Below, piece by piece: positions 35,852 through 45,905 of a stretch of DNA of 64,000 nt. The notes beneath the pieces were generated by a model. That model searched no databases and was not told the origin of the DNA. It was given only the letters and a program-made list of their open reading frames with translations. Every line of letters begins with the position of its first letter. The stretch's first letter is position 1. The translations under genes were made by a program, and so were the position numbers. The DNA lies in assembly GCF_013371465.1 (NCBI RefSeq), contig NZ_JABWDU010000009.1, forward strand, positions 1 to 64,000, in the 5' to 3' direction. Origin of the DNA: Ensifer oleiphilus. Lineage in GTDB: Bacteria; Pseudomonadota; Alphaproteobacteria; Rhizobiales; Rhizobiaceae.

Positions 35852-36637
35852 TTAGTCAACGATGTGGTAGCCGCCGTCGACATAGAGGACCTGCCCGGTT
35901 ATCAGCCGCGCGGCATCGTGAGCGAGGAACGCCGTAGCCGCGCCAACGTCGTCTATATCCACAAGTTCGCGGGCCGGCGACTTGACCTTGGTCCTTTCGA
36001 GCAGCGCGTCGAATTCCGGGATTCCTGACGAAGCCCGCGTCGCAAGCGCACCGGGCGAGATGGCGTGGACGCGAATGCCCTTGGGGCCGAGCTCTGCCGC
36101 GAGGTAGCGAACCGCACTTTCGAGTGCCGCCTTGGCGACACCCATGATGTTGTAGTTCTCCACCACGACCTGCGAACCGTGATAGGTCATTGTGAAGAGC
36201 GTGCCGCCATTCTTCATCAGTGGTTCTGCCAGATGCGCCATGCGAATGAAGGACCAGCAGGATATGTCCATGGTCTTGAGGAAGCCCTCGCGAGGGACGT
36301 CAACCACGCGCCCGCCGAGTGTATCCTTCGGCGAGAAGGCGATTGAGTGCACGACGAAGTCCAGCTCTCCCCAAGTCCTCTCAACCTCCTCGAAGACCGC
36401 CTCCATCTGACCGGAAACGGCAACGTCGAGCGGCATAAAGATCGGCGCTTCGAGCTCGCGCGCCAAGGGCTCCACATGGGGCTTGGCCTTGTCATTGAGG
36501 TAGGTGACGGCGACTTCGGCCCCGAGGGCGCGGAAGGCGCGAGCGCAGCCCCACGCGATCGAACGGTCGTTGGCGATGCCGACGACGAGGCCTTTGCGGC
36601 CTTCTAGAAGCTTCGCATTCGCTGCGGGAATGGACAT
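35852..36637 (-). CDS. fabI: Enoyl-acyl-carrier-protein reductase of the FabI type
   Basis: 261 residues from ATG 36637 (CGGAGG 7 bases upstream). Short-chain dehydrogenase fold with the FabI glycine pattern GIANDRSIAWGCARA and the catalytic YxxxxxxK in NYNIMGVAK. It reduces trans-2-enoyl-ACP, or possibly enoyl-CoA, with NADH. It is the last gene of the operon with ackA (17-base gap), pta and a PhaC-like gene, an unusual place for a fatty-acid-synthesis enzyme; a primary fabI would be expected elsewhere in the genome. A role on short acyl-CoA made by this operon is possible. Confidence 0.88.
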   Translation of the reverse strand: MSIPAANAKLLEGRKGLVVGIANDRSIAWGCARAFRALGAEVAVTYLNDKAKPHVEPLARELEAPIFMPLDVAVSGQMEAVFEEVERTWGELDFVVHSIAFSPKDTLGGRVVDVPREGFLKTMDISCWSFIRMAHLAEPLMKNGGTLFTMTYHGSQVVVENYNIMGVAKAALESAVRYLAAELGPKGIRVHAISPGALATRASSGIPEFDALLERTKVKSPARELVDIDDVGAATAFLAHDAARLITGQVLYVDGGYHIVD

Positions 36638-36654
36638 GTCTTGCCTCCGTTGGG

Positions 36655-37839
36655 TCAGGCTACCGCGGTTTTCAGAAGCGCCAGCGTGTGGCGCGCAATC
36701 ATCAACTCCTCGTCGGTCGGAAGAACGTAGAGCGCGACACGGCTTGAGGGCGTCGAGATCAGGGTGGCGCCGATGCTGTTGGCGGCCGGGTCGAGTTCGG
36801 CCCCCAGCCACGCGATACTCTCCGCAATCCGAGCACGGATCGGGGCGGAGTTCTCGCCGACGCCGGCTGTAAAGACGAAGGCGTCGATGCCGCCAAGTGC
36901 GGCCGCAAGCATGCCCGCGTTGAGACCGCAACGATAGACGAAGTGATCGACGGCGAGCTTGGCATGCGGATCGTCGCTGCCAAGAAGGTCGCGCATGTCG
37001 TTCGACACGCCCGAAAGCCCCTTGAGCCCAGCCTCGTGGTAGAGCAGGTCCGAGACGGCCCGGGCGCTCATGCCGCGCTGCAGAATGAGATAGAGCACAA
37101 CGCCCGGATCGAGCTGACCCGGCCTCGTTCCCATCGGCAGACCGTCAAGCGCGGTAAAGCCCATGGTGGTCTCGACGCTGTGACCGTCGCGCAGCGCGCA
37201 CATCGAGGCACCGCTGCCGAGATGGGCGACGATCACTCTGCCGCGTGCCACCTGTGGCGCCACCGCGCGCAGATGCTCGGCGATGTATTCATAGGAAAGA
37301 CCGTGGAAGCCGTAGCGCCGCACGCCCTCGTCATAGAAACGGCGCGGCATGGCGTAGCAGTTAACCTCTTGCGGGTGGCCATGATGGAATGCGGTGTCGA
37401 AGCAAGCGACTTGTGGCACATCGGGATTGATCGCCATCGCCTGGCGGATAGGCGCAAGGTTGTTGGGTTGGTGCAGCGGCGCAAGATCCTGGTAGCTCGC
37501 CAACCTCTCGAGCACACCCGCGTCGATCAGCACAGGCGCCGCAAAGTCGGGGCCGCCGTGCACCACACGGTGTCCGATAGCGCGAAGCTTGAAACCTTCG
37601 AGCGTCAGCAGCCAATCCCGAGCAGCAGCAATGGCTGCCGGCAGGTCGCCGACCTTGTCAGCCGGATAGGTCCGGTCAACGAGCACGGCGCCGTCGGCAC
37701 CCTTCGCTTGAAGCCGGGGGCGCGTACCGATGCCACCGATCTGGCCCTTGATCTGGCGTTCCAGCCCTCCATCGGTGATCCCGAACAATTGGAACTTGAG
37801 GCTCGACGAGCCGGCGTTGACGACGAGGAGTGCATCCAT
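36655..37839 (-). CDS. ackA: Acetate kinase
   Basis: 394 residues, the normal length. All family blocks are visible: [51 protein letters not shown] and FTAGVGENS. Converts acetyl phosphate and ADP to acetate and ATP, or the reverse. ATG 37839 lies 2 bases after the pta stop; upstream codons in this open frame belong to pta in another frame. Works with Pta for acetate overflow or uptake; related kinases accept propionate or butyrate. Confidence 0.92.
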
Positions 37840-37841
37840 GG

Positions 37842-38798
37842 CTACACCGCCGGAACTTGTGCCGCCCGTCGCCGCGCCGCATAGAGCGAAGCCACGGCGC
37901 AGGATGCAAGACGCGTACGGACGGAATCTGCCCGTGAGGTCAAGACGATCGGCACCCGCGCGCCAAGCACGATGCCGGCGGCGTCGGCATGGGACAGGAA
38001 GGTAAGGTTTTTCGCGAGCATGTTGCCGGCCTCGAGATCCGGCACCACCAGGATCTGGGCTCTGCCGGCGACCGGCGAGACTATGCCCTTGATGCGCGCT
38101 GCTTCCGGATCGATCGCATTGTCGAAGGCGAGCGGGCCGTCGAGCAGGCCGCCGGTGATCTGGCCGCGGTCGGCCATCTTGCAGAGCGCGGCGGCCTCGA
38201 TCGTCGAAGGGATCTTCGTCGTTACAGTCTCGACCGCCGAAAGGATGGCGACACGCGGCTCGCCGAGACCGATTGTCACCCAGAGGTCGATCGCGTTCTG
38301 CACGATATCGCGCTTGGCCTCGAGGTCCGGAAAGATGTTGATGGCAGCGTCGGTGATAAACAGCGTCTCGGCATGGCCCGGCACATCCATGATGAAGACG
38401 TGGCTGATCCTTCGGTCGGTCCTGAGCCCGGTCGCGGAGGCGGCAACTTCCTTCATCAGCTCGTCGGTATGCAGGCTTCCTTTCATCAGGAGTTCGCCCC
38501 GGCCCTCGCGGATCAGCGCGACGGCCTTGGCGGCCGCAGCATGACTGTGCGGCACATCCACGATCTCGCGCCCGCCGAGGTCGAGGCCGTGTTCGGCCGC
38601 GACGGTGCGGATCTTCGCCTGCGGGCCGACGAGAACAGGCGCAATCAGGCCCAACTCGGCAGCCTCCAGCGCACCGCGGAGCGATGTCTCGTCGCAAGGA
38701 TGCGCCACGATCGTGACAGCCGGCGTTTCGTCCTGCGCGGCTGCGATCAGGCGGTCGTATTTGGACAGTTCAGGCGTCATTGCGCTTGCTTCGGACAC
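37842..38798 (-). CDS. pta: Phosphate acetyltransferase (short type)
   Basis: 318 residues, the short catalytic-domain form without the N-terminal DRTGG part. PTA_PTB fold with GDPRVAIL-like [26 protein letters not shown] and the C-terminal [15 protein letters not shown]. Exchanges CoA and phosphate on an acyl group (acetyl-CoA to acetyl phosphate). Sequence alone does not exclude phosphate butyryltransferase activity. Starts 20 bases after the PhaC-like gene. Confidence 0.88.
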
Positions 38799-38818
38799 GT
38801 CGAAAACTCCCTCGTCGA

Positions 38819-41023
38819 TCAGGATACCTTGCGGTTGCGAACGGTCTTGCCTGCAGTGATCGAGACCGGAGGCTCGCTGTCGAGACGAAAGAGCGTCGCC
38901 ACCCGTTGCAACCGCTCGGCTGCGACAGCCATTACCGCACCGGACGCTTCGAGCACTCCCCGAAGGGCAGCGAAAGCAGATCGGCGCTCTTCAATCGCCT
39001 CCGGCAGCAACTTCGGAAGTGCCGCAAGGGCAGCATCCTCGTCGATCAGCAGCATGAAGTATTGCTCGCGCATCACCGCCTTGAACGTAGCAAGGTCCAA
39101 TTGTTTCGTCTCGCGATGAGCCTGCCGCAGCCGGCGCACGGCCTCGAAGCCGCGCTCGTCGGCGCCGCCGCGCGCCATACCGACGAATATCAGGCATCTG
39201 GCGAGACCTTCACAGATACCGCCGTGCGCCATTCGGGATCGAAGTTCTGCGATCCGCGCCTCAACGAGTTCCTGATGCAGAGGGCTTTTTGCCGCCTTGC
39301 GCGGCTTTCCGGTGCTCGCGTCGATGCCAAGCGCCGCCTGTAGCGTCGCGGAGCCGTAGATGGCCTGAAAGCTCTGTTCTGAAAGATATTCGGCCGTGCG
39401 TCGCCAGGTCTCGAGCCCGTCGACGATCTGTTGCGAAAAGCTCTCCTGCCACGCGACGAAAGGATTTTCCCGGGCTACCGGCTCGCGGGTTTGGCGGACC
39501 TGGTCTGCAAGAGCCCTCGCCCAGTTCATGAAGGGATTGTCAGGTCCGAACAGTGCATATTGCAGGCGCAGCGGGTGCAGGTTCCGCATCGCTTCGGCCA
39601 CGGGCGGCGTCACCGCCGCTTTAACCGCTGGCTGCAGGTAGGTGCGGTAAAGCGCGAGATTGACTTCCGAGAGTTTCGCCGCGGTCGCGAAACGCCGTTC
39701 ATCCTCGGCGTCGTTGCCACCAAGCGCCCGGATATCGTCAAGCGTGCGCGGCTCGCAGCGCATCAGCCATTCGCCGGAAGCGAACTCCCTGCCTTCGGTG
39801 ACCTCGCTTGCCGACGTCAGCACGGCTTCGTACAACCCAGGGGGCAAGACATCGATCAGGTCGATGTTGGAAGCGAATTCGTCGTGCTCCTTGCGCGCAA
39901 CACCGGCCGACACGAAGATGCCGAGATGCCCGATCGTCTCATGGACGGTGTAGACGATGGTTTGGCCATAGGCGCGGATCTCGTCGACGCTGTGATAGAG
40001 ATCGAGGATCCAGCCGAGTGCCTGCTGCGGCGGCGTAATGTTGTCGCCCTTCGAGCAAAAGACCACGATTGGAGAATGTACGTTGCGCAGGTCGATCGCG
40101 GTGCCGTCGGACGTCCGGATCTCGCCGGCCGCAAGCTTGTTGCCGACAAAGAGTTCGTCGACGATGAACTGCATTTCCTCGGCGTTCAGCGTCACATGGC
40201 CGCCCCACCAGCGCTCGAAGCCGAGATACCGCGCCGCTTCGGTATCGATCCTCGAATAGAGGTTGTACTGCTTGGTCCAGAGTGTGTTGGCCGGGTTCTG
40301 GTTTTCGAAATTTTGCACCAGCCAGGCGCCATCGAAGATACCGGCGCCGAGATCGCCGGTCAGAGCCGTCAACCAGCTGCCGCCGAGAAGTCCGCCGGAA
40401 TAGCGCATCGGGTTCTGCCCCTTCACGCCGGCCCAATAGGAAAGCGGCGCGCCGGCGATAATGATCGGGCCGAACAGCTCTGGTCTGAGCGCGGCGACGA
40501 TCATCACTGCCCACCCGGCCTGGCAATTGCCGATCACGCAGGGCTTGCCGTCCGCAGACGGATGGCGCGCAATCACGGTTTCCAGAAATCCGGCCTCGGC
40601 AAGAGCAATATCCTCAATGGTCTGACCGGGCATGGGATCTGGAAGAAAGCCGATGAAATAGCAGGGATGGCCAGCCTTCAGCACCACGCCGATTTCGCTA
40701 TCGGCCTTGAAGCCGCCAATTCCGGGACCGTGGCCGGCACGTGGATCGACGACGACAAAGGGTCGCTTCGACGGGTCAACCGCCACATCTTCGTGCGGAA
40801 CGATCTTGACCAGTGCATAGTTCACCGGCCGCTCGAGCGTGCGCCCGTCACGGATGAGTTCGACCTCGAATTCCAGCACGTTTGGAGCGGTTTGCGTGCG
40901 GTGTTCCTCATATTGGGCGCCGCGCTCACGCATGACATCCAGAAACAGAACAGAACGCTGCCACGCGTCCAACGAATAAGCGTAGGCGTCAGAAAATGTC
41001 GGGATGGTTGTCGGCTTCGGCAT
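38819..41023 (-). CDS. PhaC-like alpha/beta-hydrolase protein (DUF3141)
   Basis: 734 residues from ATG 41023 (GAGGAG 9 bases upstream); the open frame runs back to a TTG at 41086 through promoter sequence. No signal peptide. The first half is an alpha/beta hydrolase that resembles PHA synthase: nucleophile box IGNCQAGWA with Cys167, acid in CSKGDNITPP (Asp327) and His in TIGHLGIF (His366). The spacing Cys-Asp is close to that in PhaC. The second half (about 400-734) is helical and has no known motif. Annotated in rhizobia as DUF3141 or 3-hydroxyalkanoate-synthetase-like; activity not established as far as I know. First gene of the operon with pta, ackA and fabI. Confidence 0.8.
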   Translation of the reverse strand: MPKPTTIPTFSDAYAYSLDAWQRSVLFLDVMRERGAQYEEHRTQTAPNVLEFEVELIRDGRTLERPVNYALVKIVPHEDVAVDPSKRPFVVVDPRAGHGPGIGGFKADSEIGVVLKAGHPCYFIGFLPDPMPGQTIEDIALAEAGFLETVIARHPSADGKPCVIGNCQAGWAVMIVAALRPELFGPIIIAGAPLSYWAGVKGQNPMRYSGGLLGGSWLTALTGDLGAGIFDGAWLVQNFENQNPANTLWTKQYNLYSRIDTEAARYLGFERWWGGHVTLNAEEMQFIVDELFVGNKLAAGEIRTSDGTAIDLRNVHSPIVVFCSKGDNITPPQQALGWILDLYHSVDEIRAYGQTIVYTVHETIGHLGIFVSAGVARKEHDEFASNIDLIDVLPPGLYEAVLTSASEVTEGREFASGEWLMRCEPRTLDDIRALGGNDAEDERRFATAAKLSEVNLALYRTYLQPAVKAAVTPPVAEAMRNLHPLRLQYALFGPDNPFMNWARALADQVRQTREPVARENPFVAWQESFSQQIVDGLETWRRTAEYLSEQSFQAIYGSATLQAALGIDASTGKPRKAAKSPLHQELVEARIAELRSRMAHGGICEGLARCLIFVGMARGGADERGFEAVRRLRQAHRETKQLDLATFKAVMREQYFMLLIDEDAALAALPKLLPEAIEERRSAFAALRGVLEASGAVMAVAAERLQRVATLFRLDSEPPVSITAGKTVRNRKVS

Positions 41024-41069
41024 GATGTCCACTCCTCGGTTTGATTGAGGGTCGGGCCTGTTCCCGAAT

Positions 41070-41111
41070 GATATAGGGCAGTGCAAGCGGTCACGTGTTG
41101 ATTTACGTCAA
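41070..41111 (-). promoter_or_regulatory. FixK/FNR-type class II promoter of the PhaC-like/pta/ackA/fabI operon
   Basis: TTGAT-TTAC-GTCAA at 41098-41111 fits the rhizobial FixK/FnrN consensus TTGAY-N4-RTCAA without mismatch (the site is read the same way on both strands within the degenerate consensus). TATATC at 41075-41070 on the minus strand lies where the -10 hexamer should be if the box is centred at -41.5, giving a start near 41063, about 40 bases before the ATG. This geometry is that of oxygen-limitation-activated promoters. Confidence 0.7.
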
Positions 41112-41304
41112 GAACGACATGCGTACTGCGGACCGAAACGCCTCATAGAGGCCATAGGCATACATCTGTGGATGAGTTGCCGCGAACTCTTAACCGTTGC
41201 CATATGCTTGGCTCGCAACCGGTCAACGGCGTCCACGTCTCATCAGTCGTTTCGGCTTTTCGCACTGCAGCATCATACAGAAACATGCCCTTCACAAGAC
41301 GACC

Positions 41305-43290: not shown

Positions 43291-43324
43291 GGGTGAGCGG
43301 GAGAAATCCCCCTCACCCTTTTTC
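43291..43324 (+). terminator. Rho-independent terminator of htpG
   Basis: GGGTGAG (43291-43297) and CTCACCC (43312-43318) with inner pairing, followed by six T residues. The stop codon of the convergent CoA-transferase gene lies inside the right arm, so the two genes share this 3' end. Confidence 0.8.
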
Positions 43325-44506
43325 TTTTTCAGAGACACCCGCCATACCGATCTCGGCCAGCACCTCTGCCGTATGTTCGCCGAGACGCGGAACACCGCGA
43401 TCGAGCACCAGCGAGGCGTCGGAAAAGCGGATCGGCGTGCGAACACCCGGCGACGTGCCGCCAGCCGCACCGGAGTGCGGCGTATCGATCTTCATCTGCC
43501 GGTGCACGATCTGCGGATCGGCAAAAACATCTCCGACCGTGTTGATCGGACCGCCGGGAACGCCTGCCTCTTCCAGCAGCGTCAAAAGCGCATCCCGCTC
43601 GAACCTTGCCGTTTCCGCGCAAAGCGCCGGCGTCAGGCTGTCACGATTGTGCACGCGGAGCGCGTTGGTCAGATAGCGCTCGTCTGTCGCCAGATCGCCG
43701 CGACCAAGCAGGGTGCAGAACTTGACGAACTGCCGGTCGTTGCCGACGGCGACGATCAGATGCCCGTCGGCCGTCGGAAAGACCTGGTAGGGCGCGATAT
43801 TGGGATGGGCGTTGCCAAGGCGGCGTGGCGCCTTTCCCGAGACCAGAAAATTGAGCGCCTGATTGGCAAGCACGCCGGTCATGCAGTCGAGCAGCGCCAT
43901 ATCGATCTGCTGCCCCTTGCCGGTGCGCTCGCGCTGCGCCAAAGCCGCCTGGACGGCGATGACGCCGTAGAGCCCGGTGAAGATATCGGCAAAGGCAACG
44001 CCGATCTTCTGCGGCTCGCGATCCGGCTCGCCGGTCAGATCCATGATTCCGCTCATGCCCTGAACGATATAGTCGTAGCCGGCGCGATGGGCATAGGGTC
44101 CGTCCTGTCCGAAGCCTGTCACCGAGCAGTAGATGAGCCGCGGGTTGACCTTTTTCAGGCTTTCATAGTCGAGGCCGTACTTCTCCAGGCCGCCGACCTT
44201 GAAATTCTCGAGCAGCACGTCGGATTGCGCCACGAGCCGGCGCACGGCTTCCTGCCCTTCCTCGGTCGTGAAATCGAGCACAACGGAGCGCTTGCCACGA
44301 TTACAGGCGTGGAAATAGGCCGCATCGAGCTTGCCTCCGTCCTCGTCTGCGACGAAGGGCGGTCCCCAGGTGCGGGTGTCGTCACCCGCCGGGCTTTCCA
44401 CCTTGATGACGTCGGCACCGAGATCAGCGAGCGTCTGGCCGATCCAGGGGCCCGCGAGAATGCGGGCGAGTTCTAGAACGCGAATACCCTTCAGTGGCGC
44501 TTCCAT
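43313..44506 (-). CDS. CaiB/BaiF-family CoA-transferase, probable succinyl-CoA:glutarate type
   Basis: 397 residues, class III CoA-transferase. N-terminal block GIRVLELARILAGPWIGQTLADLGADVIKVE, middle SVTGFGQDGPYAHRAGYDYIVQGMSG, and probable catalytic Asp in MALLDCMTGVLANQ. It lies 10 bases after a glutaryl-CoA dehydrogenase gene; in other proteobacteria that pairing marks glutarate activation to glutaryl-CoA. So the two genes probably route glutarate (from lysine or tryptophan) to crotonyl-CoA. Exact CoA donor unknown. Confidence 0.85.
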   Translation of the reverse strand: MEAPLKGIRVLELARILAGPWIGQTLADLGADVIKVESPAGDDTRTWGPPFVADEDGGKLDAAYFHACNRGKRSVVLDFTTEEGQEAVRRLVAQSDVLLENFKVGGLEKYGLDYESLKKVNPRLIYCSVTGFGQDGPYAHRAGYDYIVQGMSGIMDLTGEPDREPQKIGVAFADIFTGLYGVIAVQAALAQRERTGKGQQIDMALLDCMTGVLANQALNFLVSGKAPRRLGNAHPNIAPYQVFPTADGHLIVAVGNDRQFVKFCTLLGRGDLATDERYLTNALRVHNRDSLTPALCAETARFERDALLTLLEEAGVPGGPINTVGDVFADPQIVHRQMKIDTPHSGAAGGTSPGVRTPIRFSDASLVLDRGVPRLGEHTAEVLAEIGMAGVSEKEKG

Positions 44507-44516
44507 GATTGGCGGC

Positions 44517-45704
44517 TCAGAAGAAGGCCTGGAGGCCGGTCTGGGCGCGGCCGAGGATCAGCGCATGTACGTCATGCGTGCCCTCGTACGTGTTGACCGT
44601 CTCGAGGTTCACCATGTGGCGCATGACCTGGTATTCCTCGGAGATGCCATTGCCGCCGTGCATGTCGCGGGCCATGCGGGCGATATCGAGCGCCTTGCCG
44701 CAATTGTTGCGCTTGACGAGCGAAATCATTTCCGGCGCCATGCGGCCTTCGTCCATCAGCCGGCCGACGCGCAACGATCCCTGAAGGCCGAGCGAGATCT
44801 CGGTCTGCATGTCCGCAAGCTTCTTCTGGAAAAGCTGGGTCTGGGCCAGCGGGCGATTGAACTGCTTGCGATCAAGCCCGTACTGGCGCGCCGCATGCCA
44901 GCAGAATTCGGCAGCACCGAGAGCACCCCAGGAAATGCCGTAGCGGGCGCGGTTGAGGCAGCCGAACGGGCCCTTCAGCCCCTCGACGTTGGGCAGCATT
45001 GCGTCTTCACCGACCTCGACATTGTCCATGACGATTTCGCCGGTGATCGAAGCGCGAAGCGACAGCTTGCCCGCGATCTTCGGCGCCGAAAGGCCTTTCA
45101 TGCCCTTGTCGAGCACGAAGCCGCGAATGGCATTGCCATGGGCCTCGGACTTTGCCCAGACGACGAAGACGTCGGCGAGCGGCGCATTGGAGATCCACAT
45201 CTTCGAACCGACGAGGCGGTAGCCGCTCTCCGTCTTGATCGCCCGGGTCTTCATGCCCGCCGGGTCGGAGCCGGCATCCGGCTCGGTCAGGCCGAAGCAG
45301 CCGATCCATTCGCCGCTGATCAGCTTCGGCAGATATTTCTGCTTCTGCTCTTCCGAGCCGTAGGCATAGATCGGGTAGATGACCAACGAGGACTGCACAC
45401 TCATCATCGAGCGGTAGCCCGAATCGACGCGCTCGACTTCGCGGGCAACGAGACCATAGGCGACATAGGAAGCGCCGACGCCACCATAGGTCTCCGAAAC
45501 GGTGACCCCTAGCAGGCCGAGATCGCCCATCTCCCGGAAGATTTCGGGATCGGTCGATTCCTCGCGATAGGCGGCAATAACCCGCGGCTGCAACCGGTCC
45601 TGCGCATAGGCCCGCGCACTATCGCGGATCATACGCTCGTCCTCGGTCAACTGATCTTCGAGGAGGAACGCGTCATCCCATTGAAATTGCGTCTTGCCGG
45701 CCAT
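44517..45704 (-). CDS. gcdH: Glutaryl-CoA dehydrogenase
   Basis: 395 residues from ATG 45704 (GGGAGAG upstream). Acyl-CoA dehydrogenase fold with FAD-binding [13 protein letters not shown] and the catalytic Glu in [15 protein letters not shown]; the GLQAFF end and the [10 protein letters not shown] stretch are typical of glutaryl-CoA rather than straight-chain dehydrogenases. Oxidises and decarboxylates glutaryl-CoA to crotonyl-CoA, passing electrons to ETF. First gene of the pair with the CoA-transferase. Confidence 0.92.
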
Positions 45705-45905
45705 GTCTCTCTCCCATCGGATTTTTCCACTTGCGGTTATGGCAAGCAGAACCAAGGCTTTCAAACGAAATTGAGGCACCGCCTCATGCGTCTGCGGAAT
45801 GGCCCTCGCCGCATGCTGATCTTAACCTTGTTTAGCGATGCCTGATGGACCAAGACTTATGGTTGCCATATCCTTAATGGGACATTTTATCGGAGTGCTT
45901 CCGTC

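Follow-up and report, generated by a model that had tools for sequence, protein, structure and literature searches.

We examined a four-gene cluster of Ensifer oleiphilus (RefSeq assembly GCF_013371465.1) that lies within the first 64,000 nucleotides of contig NZ_JABWDU010000009.1, a stretch referred to here as the window. The cluster occupies positions 35852-41023 of the minus strand and encodes, in transcription order, a DUF3141 protein, a phosphotransacylase, an acetate-type kinase and a FabI paralogue. We propose, with roughly even confidence, that it constitutes a low-oxygen overflow (fermentation-like) branch attached to the metabolism of polyhydroxybutyrate (PHB). A first-pass annotation of this DNA had read the cluster as a possible short acyl or hydroxyacyl pathway, and that interpretation is supported in part: the PhaC-related fold and residue set, the operon, the oxygen-type promoter box and the PHB link have stood, while the type of the kinase speaks against a dedicated butyrate route.

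The four genes and their arrangement as an operon at 35852-41023, both claimed in the first-pass annotation, are borne out. The first gene (38819-41023) encodes a DUF3141 (PF11339) PhaC-like alpha/beta hydrolase of 734 amino acids and begins with an ATG at 41023. It is followed by genes for a phosphotransacylase of the PRK11890/PRK08190 subfamilies (37842-38780, 312 amino acids; NCBIfam PRK11890, 537 bits), an acetate/propionate-family kinase carrying Val93 (36655-37839, 394 amino acids) and the FabI paralogue (35852-36637, 261 amino acids; NF005717, 443 bits against a cut-off of 337). The respective Pfam scores are 934 bits for PF11339, 156 for PTA_PTB, 349 for Acetate_kinase (PF00871) and 299 for adh_short_C2. 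Gene starts at 41023, 38780, 37839 and 36637 leave successive gaps of only 38, 2 and 17 bases, a spacing which suggests that the four genes are co-transcribed in this strain.

The DUF3141 protein matches PF11339 over positions 1-581 of the 582 in the profile (934 bits, gathering cut-off 29.7). Its putative catalytic residues lie in the motifs GNCQAG (C167), SKGDNITPP (D327) and GHLGIF (H366). In an alignment of the window protein with 116 homologues, all of them found by homology to the DUF3141 family and many of them close relatives, Asp327 and His366 are kept in 117/117 sequences and Cys167 in 116/117; the sole exception (L154) is an open reading frame fragment that lacks the Cys segment. 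The most distant of the aligned homologues are only about 31-46% identical to the window protein. The presence of the Cys167-Asp327-His366 set proposed earlier is thus confirmed, and the alignment excludes that the triad is not conserved in the family. In a structural model built from 33 sequences (pLDDT 81.4, pTM 0.84), C167 follows a strand at 162-166 and precedes a helix at 169-179, D327 follows a strand at 319-324 and H366 follows a strand at 355-361; this predicted order of Cys, Asp and His along the strands is the usual one of alpha/beta hydrolases, with pLDDT below 50 at residues 364-374. A search of solved structures with the DUF3141 sequence returned only three matches, with E-values of 0.037-0.19, which is chance level, and therefore a fold search was used. 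The top Foldseek match of the model is PhaC 6k3c (E 2.8e-6), with five more PhaC chains among the top 30, in support of the PhaC-like fold that had been suggested for this protein.

Profile comparisons also relate the family to PhaC. In local mode, hhalign aligned the DUF3141 profile with three short PhaC-like proteins at a probability of 99.4 (E 1.4e-21; Cys, Asp and His aligned) and with 11 class I PhaC proteins at a probability of 71 (E 3.7e-5; Cys and Asp aligned), and with the -glob option the comparison with the three short proteins reached 99.8. The short PhaC-like protein of locus L163 matches PHA_synth_III_C at 130 bits, the PhaZ depolymerase at 86 and DUF3141 at 84, and it has both a PHB_depo_C domain and TIGR01849. 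On these profiles, DUF3141 appears to belong near the PhaC/PhaZ branch of the alpha/beta hydrolases, to which it is bridged by the short PhaC-like proteins. The features shared with class III PhaC and PhaZ are the alpha/beta-hydrolase fold and the Cys-Asp-His set. The N-terminal part of DUF3141 is peculiar to it, and the C-terminus is extended by about 300 residues that are mostly helical. Judged by score, it is not a PhaC. The Pfam scan finds PF11339 only and no PhaC_N, the match to the class III PHA (polyhydroxyalkanoate) synthase family TIGR01836 reaches 22.4 bits against a cut-off of 365.3, and neither PHB_depo_C nor TIGR01849 is matched at E 0.001 in the Pfam and NCBIfam scans. As a separate observation, short proteins of 371-394 amino acids encoded near a transacylase and a kinase in L163, L193 and L195 may form a family of their own (L163 was scanned). 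DUF3141 has been mentioned in similar contexts before: it was clustered with PHA synthase and assigned a C-D-H triad (PMC11878206), one member was listed as a depolymerase by annotation (PMC8050969), and the domain was noted in a pha cluster (PMC8601165).

We compared gene neighborhoods across 80 named DUF3141 loci and 35 places from a sample of 397 genomes of the phylum, counting a partner anywhere in the fetched stretch; the named loci end at contig ends, and many of the 80 are close relatives. Of the named loci, 73 have a transacylase gene, 66 have ackA, 75 have fabI and 65 have the full set; in the sampled places the corresponding counts are 20, 21, 21 and 20 of 35. The distance and order of the genes vary. 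In three Bradyrhizobium loci the transacylase gene is located 8 kb from the DUF3141 start, pta-ackA may be divergent from DUF3141 (L127, L130), fabI may lie upstream (L139, L147, L149) and DUF3141 may come last (L142), while some loci carry DUF3141 and fabI without ackA, or without both transacylase and ackA. The transacylase has an N-terminal hydratase part in 5 of the 35 sampled loci (L124, L142, L146, L147, L149); when the four longer transacylases were scanned with Pfam, MaoC scored in L147 and L149 and not in L142 and L146, and the remaining fusion calls rest on NF006045 or phmmer. Genes similar to a 3-oxoacid/acetate CoA-transferase pair are present in the stretch in 28 of the 80 named loci (families named from L146 alone, the others by similarity). 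The pair sits inside the operon in the three Paracoccus loci, and those Bradyrhizobium loci in which it occurs carry it on the other strand. In a separate group of six loci (L132 and L134-L138), DUF3141 is found without pta, ackA and fabI in the stretch; a topoisomerase I cluster lies near all six and a LysR cluster in all but L135 (members checked in L132).

The reverse comparison starts from the transacylase. Forty loci without an adjoining DUF3141 gene were hand-picked from 104 transacylase places, and they contain a PhaC gene in 10 cases, a short PhaC-like gene in 3 and either in 12 (one has both). The figure of 12/40 is not an unbiased rate: 38 of these loci, with fused or unfused transacylases away from DUF3141, were taken down the score ranking with some skipped, and the remaining two lie beside short PhaC-like genes already seen beforehand. 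That PhaC and DUF3141 share this setting is our strongest argument that they act on the same pool, although most of these transacylase loci have neither.

The distribution of the two families across genomes points in the same direction. In the 397 sampled genomes, DUF3141 matches exceed the cut-off in 58 and reach at least 480 bits in 33. PhaC_N is present in all 33 of the latter, versus 259 of the 397 overall (Fisher 3.5e-7), and outside the class in 12/12 DUF3141 genomes versus 110/236 (Fisher 7.5e-5); the sample includes relatives, and both Fisher values treat the genomes as more independent than they are. For the comparison outside the class, the 236 genomes were counted by hand, 118 unlisted genomes without a match being taken as outside the class since the list was sorted by kinship, and the 110 with PhaC_N include weak matches.

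Upstream of the DUF3141 gene, at 41098-41111 of the minus strand, we found the box TTGACGTAAATCAA, which starts 88 bases 5' of the ATG and agrees at 9 of 10 positions with TTGAT-N4-ATCAA, which we take to be the FixK/FNR consensus. This predicted site supports the oxygen-responsive promoter claimed in the first-pass annotation. In 82 upstream regions (the window and L003-L083, many of them close relatives, with gene starts extrapolated from tblastn) a box with at least 9/10 matches occurs in 41 and one with at least 8/10 in 59. Mononucleotide shuffles, which keep base composition only, lead one to expect 0.27 and 4.3 regions, respectively, and random stretches from the same loci contain such boxes in 3.0% (about 2.4 of 82) and 12.7% of cases. 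Most boxes are positioned 70-120 bases upstream. When 12 Ensifer/Sinorhizobium regions are compared, the elements clearly common to them near the gene are the box and the ribosome-binding site; in the window, a Shine-Dalgarno-like AGGAG at 41032-41036 (minus strand) precedes the ATG at 41023, and the stretch AGGAGTGGAC is identical in these 12 regions. We also considered assigning the box to the divergent htpG gene, which is less likely because the box is kept in Bradyrhizobium loci where htpG was not detected. A TGACAAATCGC-GTAACA-like element, possibly a PhoB site, is found further upstream in most other Ensifer/Sinorhizobium and is altered in the window (approximately 41170-41200), L004 and L005.

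Published expression data agree with a role under low oxygen. In a phaR mutant of Bradyrhizobium diazoefficiens at 0.5% O2, blr3456 is reported to be up 7.2-fold in RNA and by a log2 of 7.2 in protein, and blr3456-blr3459 is a single predicted operon in which blr3457 is pta and blr3458 is ackA (PMC10888616); the gene order indicates that blr3456 would be the DUF3141 gene and blr3459 fabI. In NGR234 bacteroids, pta was up 166- and 228-fold and ackA 118- and 182-fold (PMC3732241), and these induced genes presumably belong to this operon. The operon is probably switched on at low oxygen. The connection to PHB metabolism made in the first-pass annotation gains from the rise of the Bradyrhizobium operon in the phaR mutant and from the occurrence of PhaC and DUF3141 in like neighborhoods, and it now has more support than it had from sequence alone.

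The gene content, the profile relation to PhaC, the shared neighborhoods and the box are observed here, and co-transcription in this strain, FixK binding, the direction of flux, the substrates and the role of DUF3141 are inferred. A FixK-type regulator would switch the operon on. The phosphotransacylase and the kinase would then convert acyl-CoA via acyl phosphate to the free acid with a gain of ATP, the acyl group being most likely acetyl and possibly also C3-C4, and FabI would spend NADH on an enoyl thioester. The DUF3141 protein, a candidate cysteine acyltransferase or hydrolase from the PhaC/PhaZ branch, would act on hydroxyacyl thioesters or PHB and thereby link the PHB store to the acid-forming branch. 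PHB is stored by many bacteroids under oxygen shortage. If the proposal is correct, an oxygen-controlled operon joins a PhaC-branch enzyme to an acid pathway that yields ATP and to a reductase that uses NADH, which would be a direct link between PHB and electron balance. It also offers a testable function for a Pfam family still named as one of unknown function.

Several results weigh against this proposal. None of the three partners is present in 13 of the 35 sampled places and in 1 of the 80 named loci, and therefore DUF3141 can occur without the transacylase, ackA and fabI; conversely, 28 of the 40 chosen transacylase loci lack a PhaC or PhaC-like gene. The co-occurrence with PhaC is confounded by phylogeny, as shared ancestry inflates both comparisons. 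Global hhalign alignment of DUF3141 to class I PhaC fails (probability 0.1), and the Foldseek search gave 321 matches at E <=0.001, with many unrelated alpha/beta hydrolases scoring like PhaC. No 9/10 box is found in 41 of the 82 upstream regions, and of the 41 boxes in the other regions several are located 170-270 bases upstream and not near -90. The FabI paralogue may serve ordinary fatty acid synthesis. In the available portion of PMC10888616, the promoters examined for PhaR binding by electrophoretic mobility shift assay (EMSA) do not include that of blr3456, and in the partly available literature that uses the term DUF3141 we found no enzyme assay of the family. Lastly, the Sinorhizobium meliloti operon is reported to be phosphate-starvation inducible (as cited in PMC5789663 and PMC8231600), which the overflow proposal does not explain.

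The transacylase exceeds the cut-off of PRK11890, a subfamily named phosphate acetyltransferase (536.6 bits, cut-off 413), and remains under that of the phosphate butyryltransferase family TIGR02706 (305.8 bits versus 410.5). It scores 75 bits against the pta family TIGR00651. Its best match among solved structures is a phosphate butyryltransferase (7vg9, 223 bits), followed by 3tng (154) and 1yco (137), while chains labelled phosphate acetyltransferase reach at most 70.5 bits. By sequence the transacylase thus appears far nearer to phosphobutyryltransferase than to canonical Pta. The kinase exceeds the TIGR00016 cut-off of 293 with 342 bits and, compared with solved structures, scores 282 bits to acetate kinase and 22 to butyrate kinase. 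Val93, which we take to be an acetate-pocket residue, is found in 66 of 67 kinases from the named loci (the exception is a gap), in 20 of 21 from the sampled DUF3141 loci (the exception is Ala) and in 34/34 of a third group of kinases. A dedicated butyrate kinase was accordingly rejected, and pocket and score together argue against a dedicated butyrate route. Gene cluster c31 lies upstream of DUF3141 in six loci (L012, L013, L016, L025, L037, L039), and the one member checked with Pfam is a phosphoketolase; S. meliloti likewise has an annotated phosphoketolase approximately 7.5 kb downstream from its DUF3141 gene, and the strain studied here encodes one elsewhere in its genome. A CBS/BON-type cluster, c25 (one member Pfam-checked), is seen in four of the six c31 loci.

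The type of the kinase and the phosphoketolase cluster favor acetyl phosphate, and it is possible, though on balance we doubt it, that the operon performs plain acetate overflow, in which acetyl phosphate derived from acetyl-CoA or from phosphoketolase is converted to acetate and ATP, and DUF3141 and FabI serve some unrelated secondary purpose, for instance in adjusting lipids or membranes. Such an explanation accommodates the conserved Val93, the preference for acetate kinase structures and the phosphoketolase genes. It leaves unexplained why DUF3141 and fabI remain together with pta-ackA even where the gene order changes, why some loci keep DUF3141 and fabI without ackA, and why the transacylase is fused to a MaoC hydratase.

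The hydratase fusion, FabI and the CoA-transferase favor C4 chemistry, and C2 and C4 substrates may both hold. A bold suggestion, which we regard as unlikely, is that the operon and its relatives carry out a butyrate fermentation running on stored PHB. DUF3141 would release 3-hydroxybutyryl-CoA from PHB or PHB oligomers, and a MaoC hydratase, which some relatives have as a fusion with the transacylase, would make crotonyl-CoA. FabI would reduce this with NADH, and the transacylase and kinase would yield butyrate and ATP. The window operon contains no hydratase, and five MaoC-type matches above the cut-off are found elsewhere in the genome. The genome also encodes two more FabI-like proteins, 48% and 46% identical to the operon FabI, and YxxMxxxK is present in 107/107 FabI sequences checked, that of the window included. 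In a limited literature search, butyrate formation from PHB by this gene set is not proposed in the available portions of PMC8231600 and PMC8686332. If this suggestion were true, PHB would be a parked fermentation intermediate and an electron sink for oxygen-short cells in nodules and soil.

We consider it very unlikely that the operon is a phosphate-stress module under PhoB control, in which CoA-bound acyl groups and phosphate are recycled into ATP. The orfA-pta-ackA-fabI operon of S. meliloti is reported to be phosphate-starvation inducible and under PhoB (Summers et al. 1999, J. Bacteriol., as cited in PMC5789663 and PMC8231600), and the TGACAAATCGC-GTAACA-like element is conserved in other Ensifer/Sinorhizobium. 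The altered form of this element in the window, L004 and L005 does not fit with such control. None of the 82 upstream regions, among them those of the window and S. meliloti, reaches 11/14 of the PHO-box consensus that we assumed, a weak test in that it also misses the S. meliloti site. As a last alternative, DUF3141 could itself be a genuine PHA synthase, which would use the acids that the kinase and transacylase load to produce a minor or unusual polymer. This view draws on the same residue set, on PhaC in a like neighborhood and on a published interpretation in which phaC-pta-ackA clusters channel acetate into PHA (PMC8231600), and it is highly improbable given the missing PhaC_N domain, the 22 bits against a class III cut-off of 365, the Asn that follows Asp327 where this genome's PhaC has His, and the PhaC_N already present in all 33 sampled DUF3141 genomes.

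The operon itself is not new; its gene set has already been described in nitrogen-fixing root bacteria. On S. meliloti pSymA (L083) all four genes recur in identical order, with a DUF3141 protein 76% identical to that of the window; the FixK/FNR-type box reaches only 8/10 there. A 2021 survey of Burkholderia compared phaC clusters that contain a phaJ-pta fusion, ackA and fabI to the S. meliloti set, the Pta, Ack and FabI proteins being 45-58% identical and the ORF only 2-24% (PMC8231600). The group D clusters among them (phaC-phaJ/pta fusion-ackA-fabI) place the same types of transacylase, kinase and reductase around a PhaC-branch protein, but with PhaC in the place of DUF3141 and the hydratase fused to the transacylase. 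Cobetia and Halomonas likewise encode phaC1-fabI-(hydratase/pta)-ackA with a bifunctional pta (PMC8686332), the same set of functions as in the window operon with PhaC instead of DUF3141. The exchange of PhaC and DUF3141 in this gene setting is therefore half in print already. What our analysis adds is the profile bridge from DUF3141 through the short PhaC-like proteins to PhaC and PhaZ, together with the shared neighborhoods, the MaoC fusions, the box counts and the co-occurrence with PhaC.

The host genome comprises 6.76 Mb in 32 contigs. The closest named relatives of the DUF3141 protein are from Ensifer/Sinorhizobium (for example L005, 93%; L004, 90%; E. adhaerens, 86%), and in E. adhaerens records the gene is located on replicons of 1.7-2.8 Mb. 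Listed S. meliloti records have two or three DUF3141-similar places each, and pSymA carries a second, short DUF3141-annotated piece on the opposite strand near the full gene (L083:6472-6768). The operon of the window is flanked by a GABA aminotransferase gene and a succinate-semialdehyde-dehydrogenase-like gene, which are convergent with it, and by the divergent htpG. Further along, at 43313-44506, the window encodes a class III CoA-transferase closest to succinate-glutarate CoA-transferase (614 bits, below the cut-off of 750), and it is followed by an acyl-CoA dehydrogenase at 44517-45779, perhaps as part of a glutarate route.

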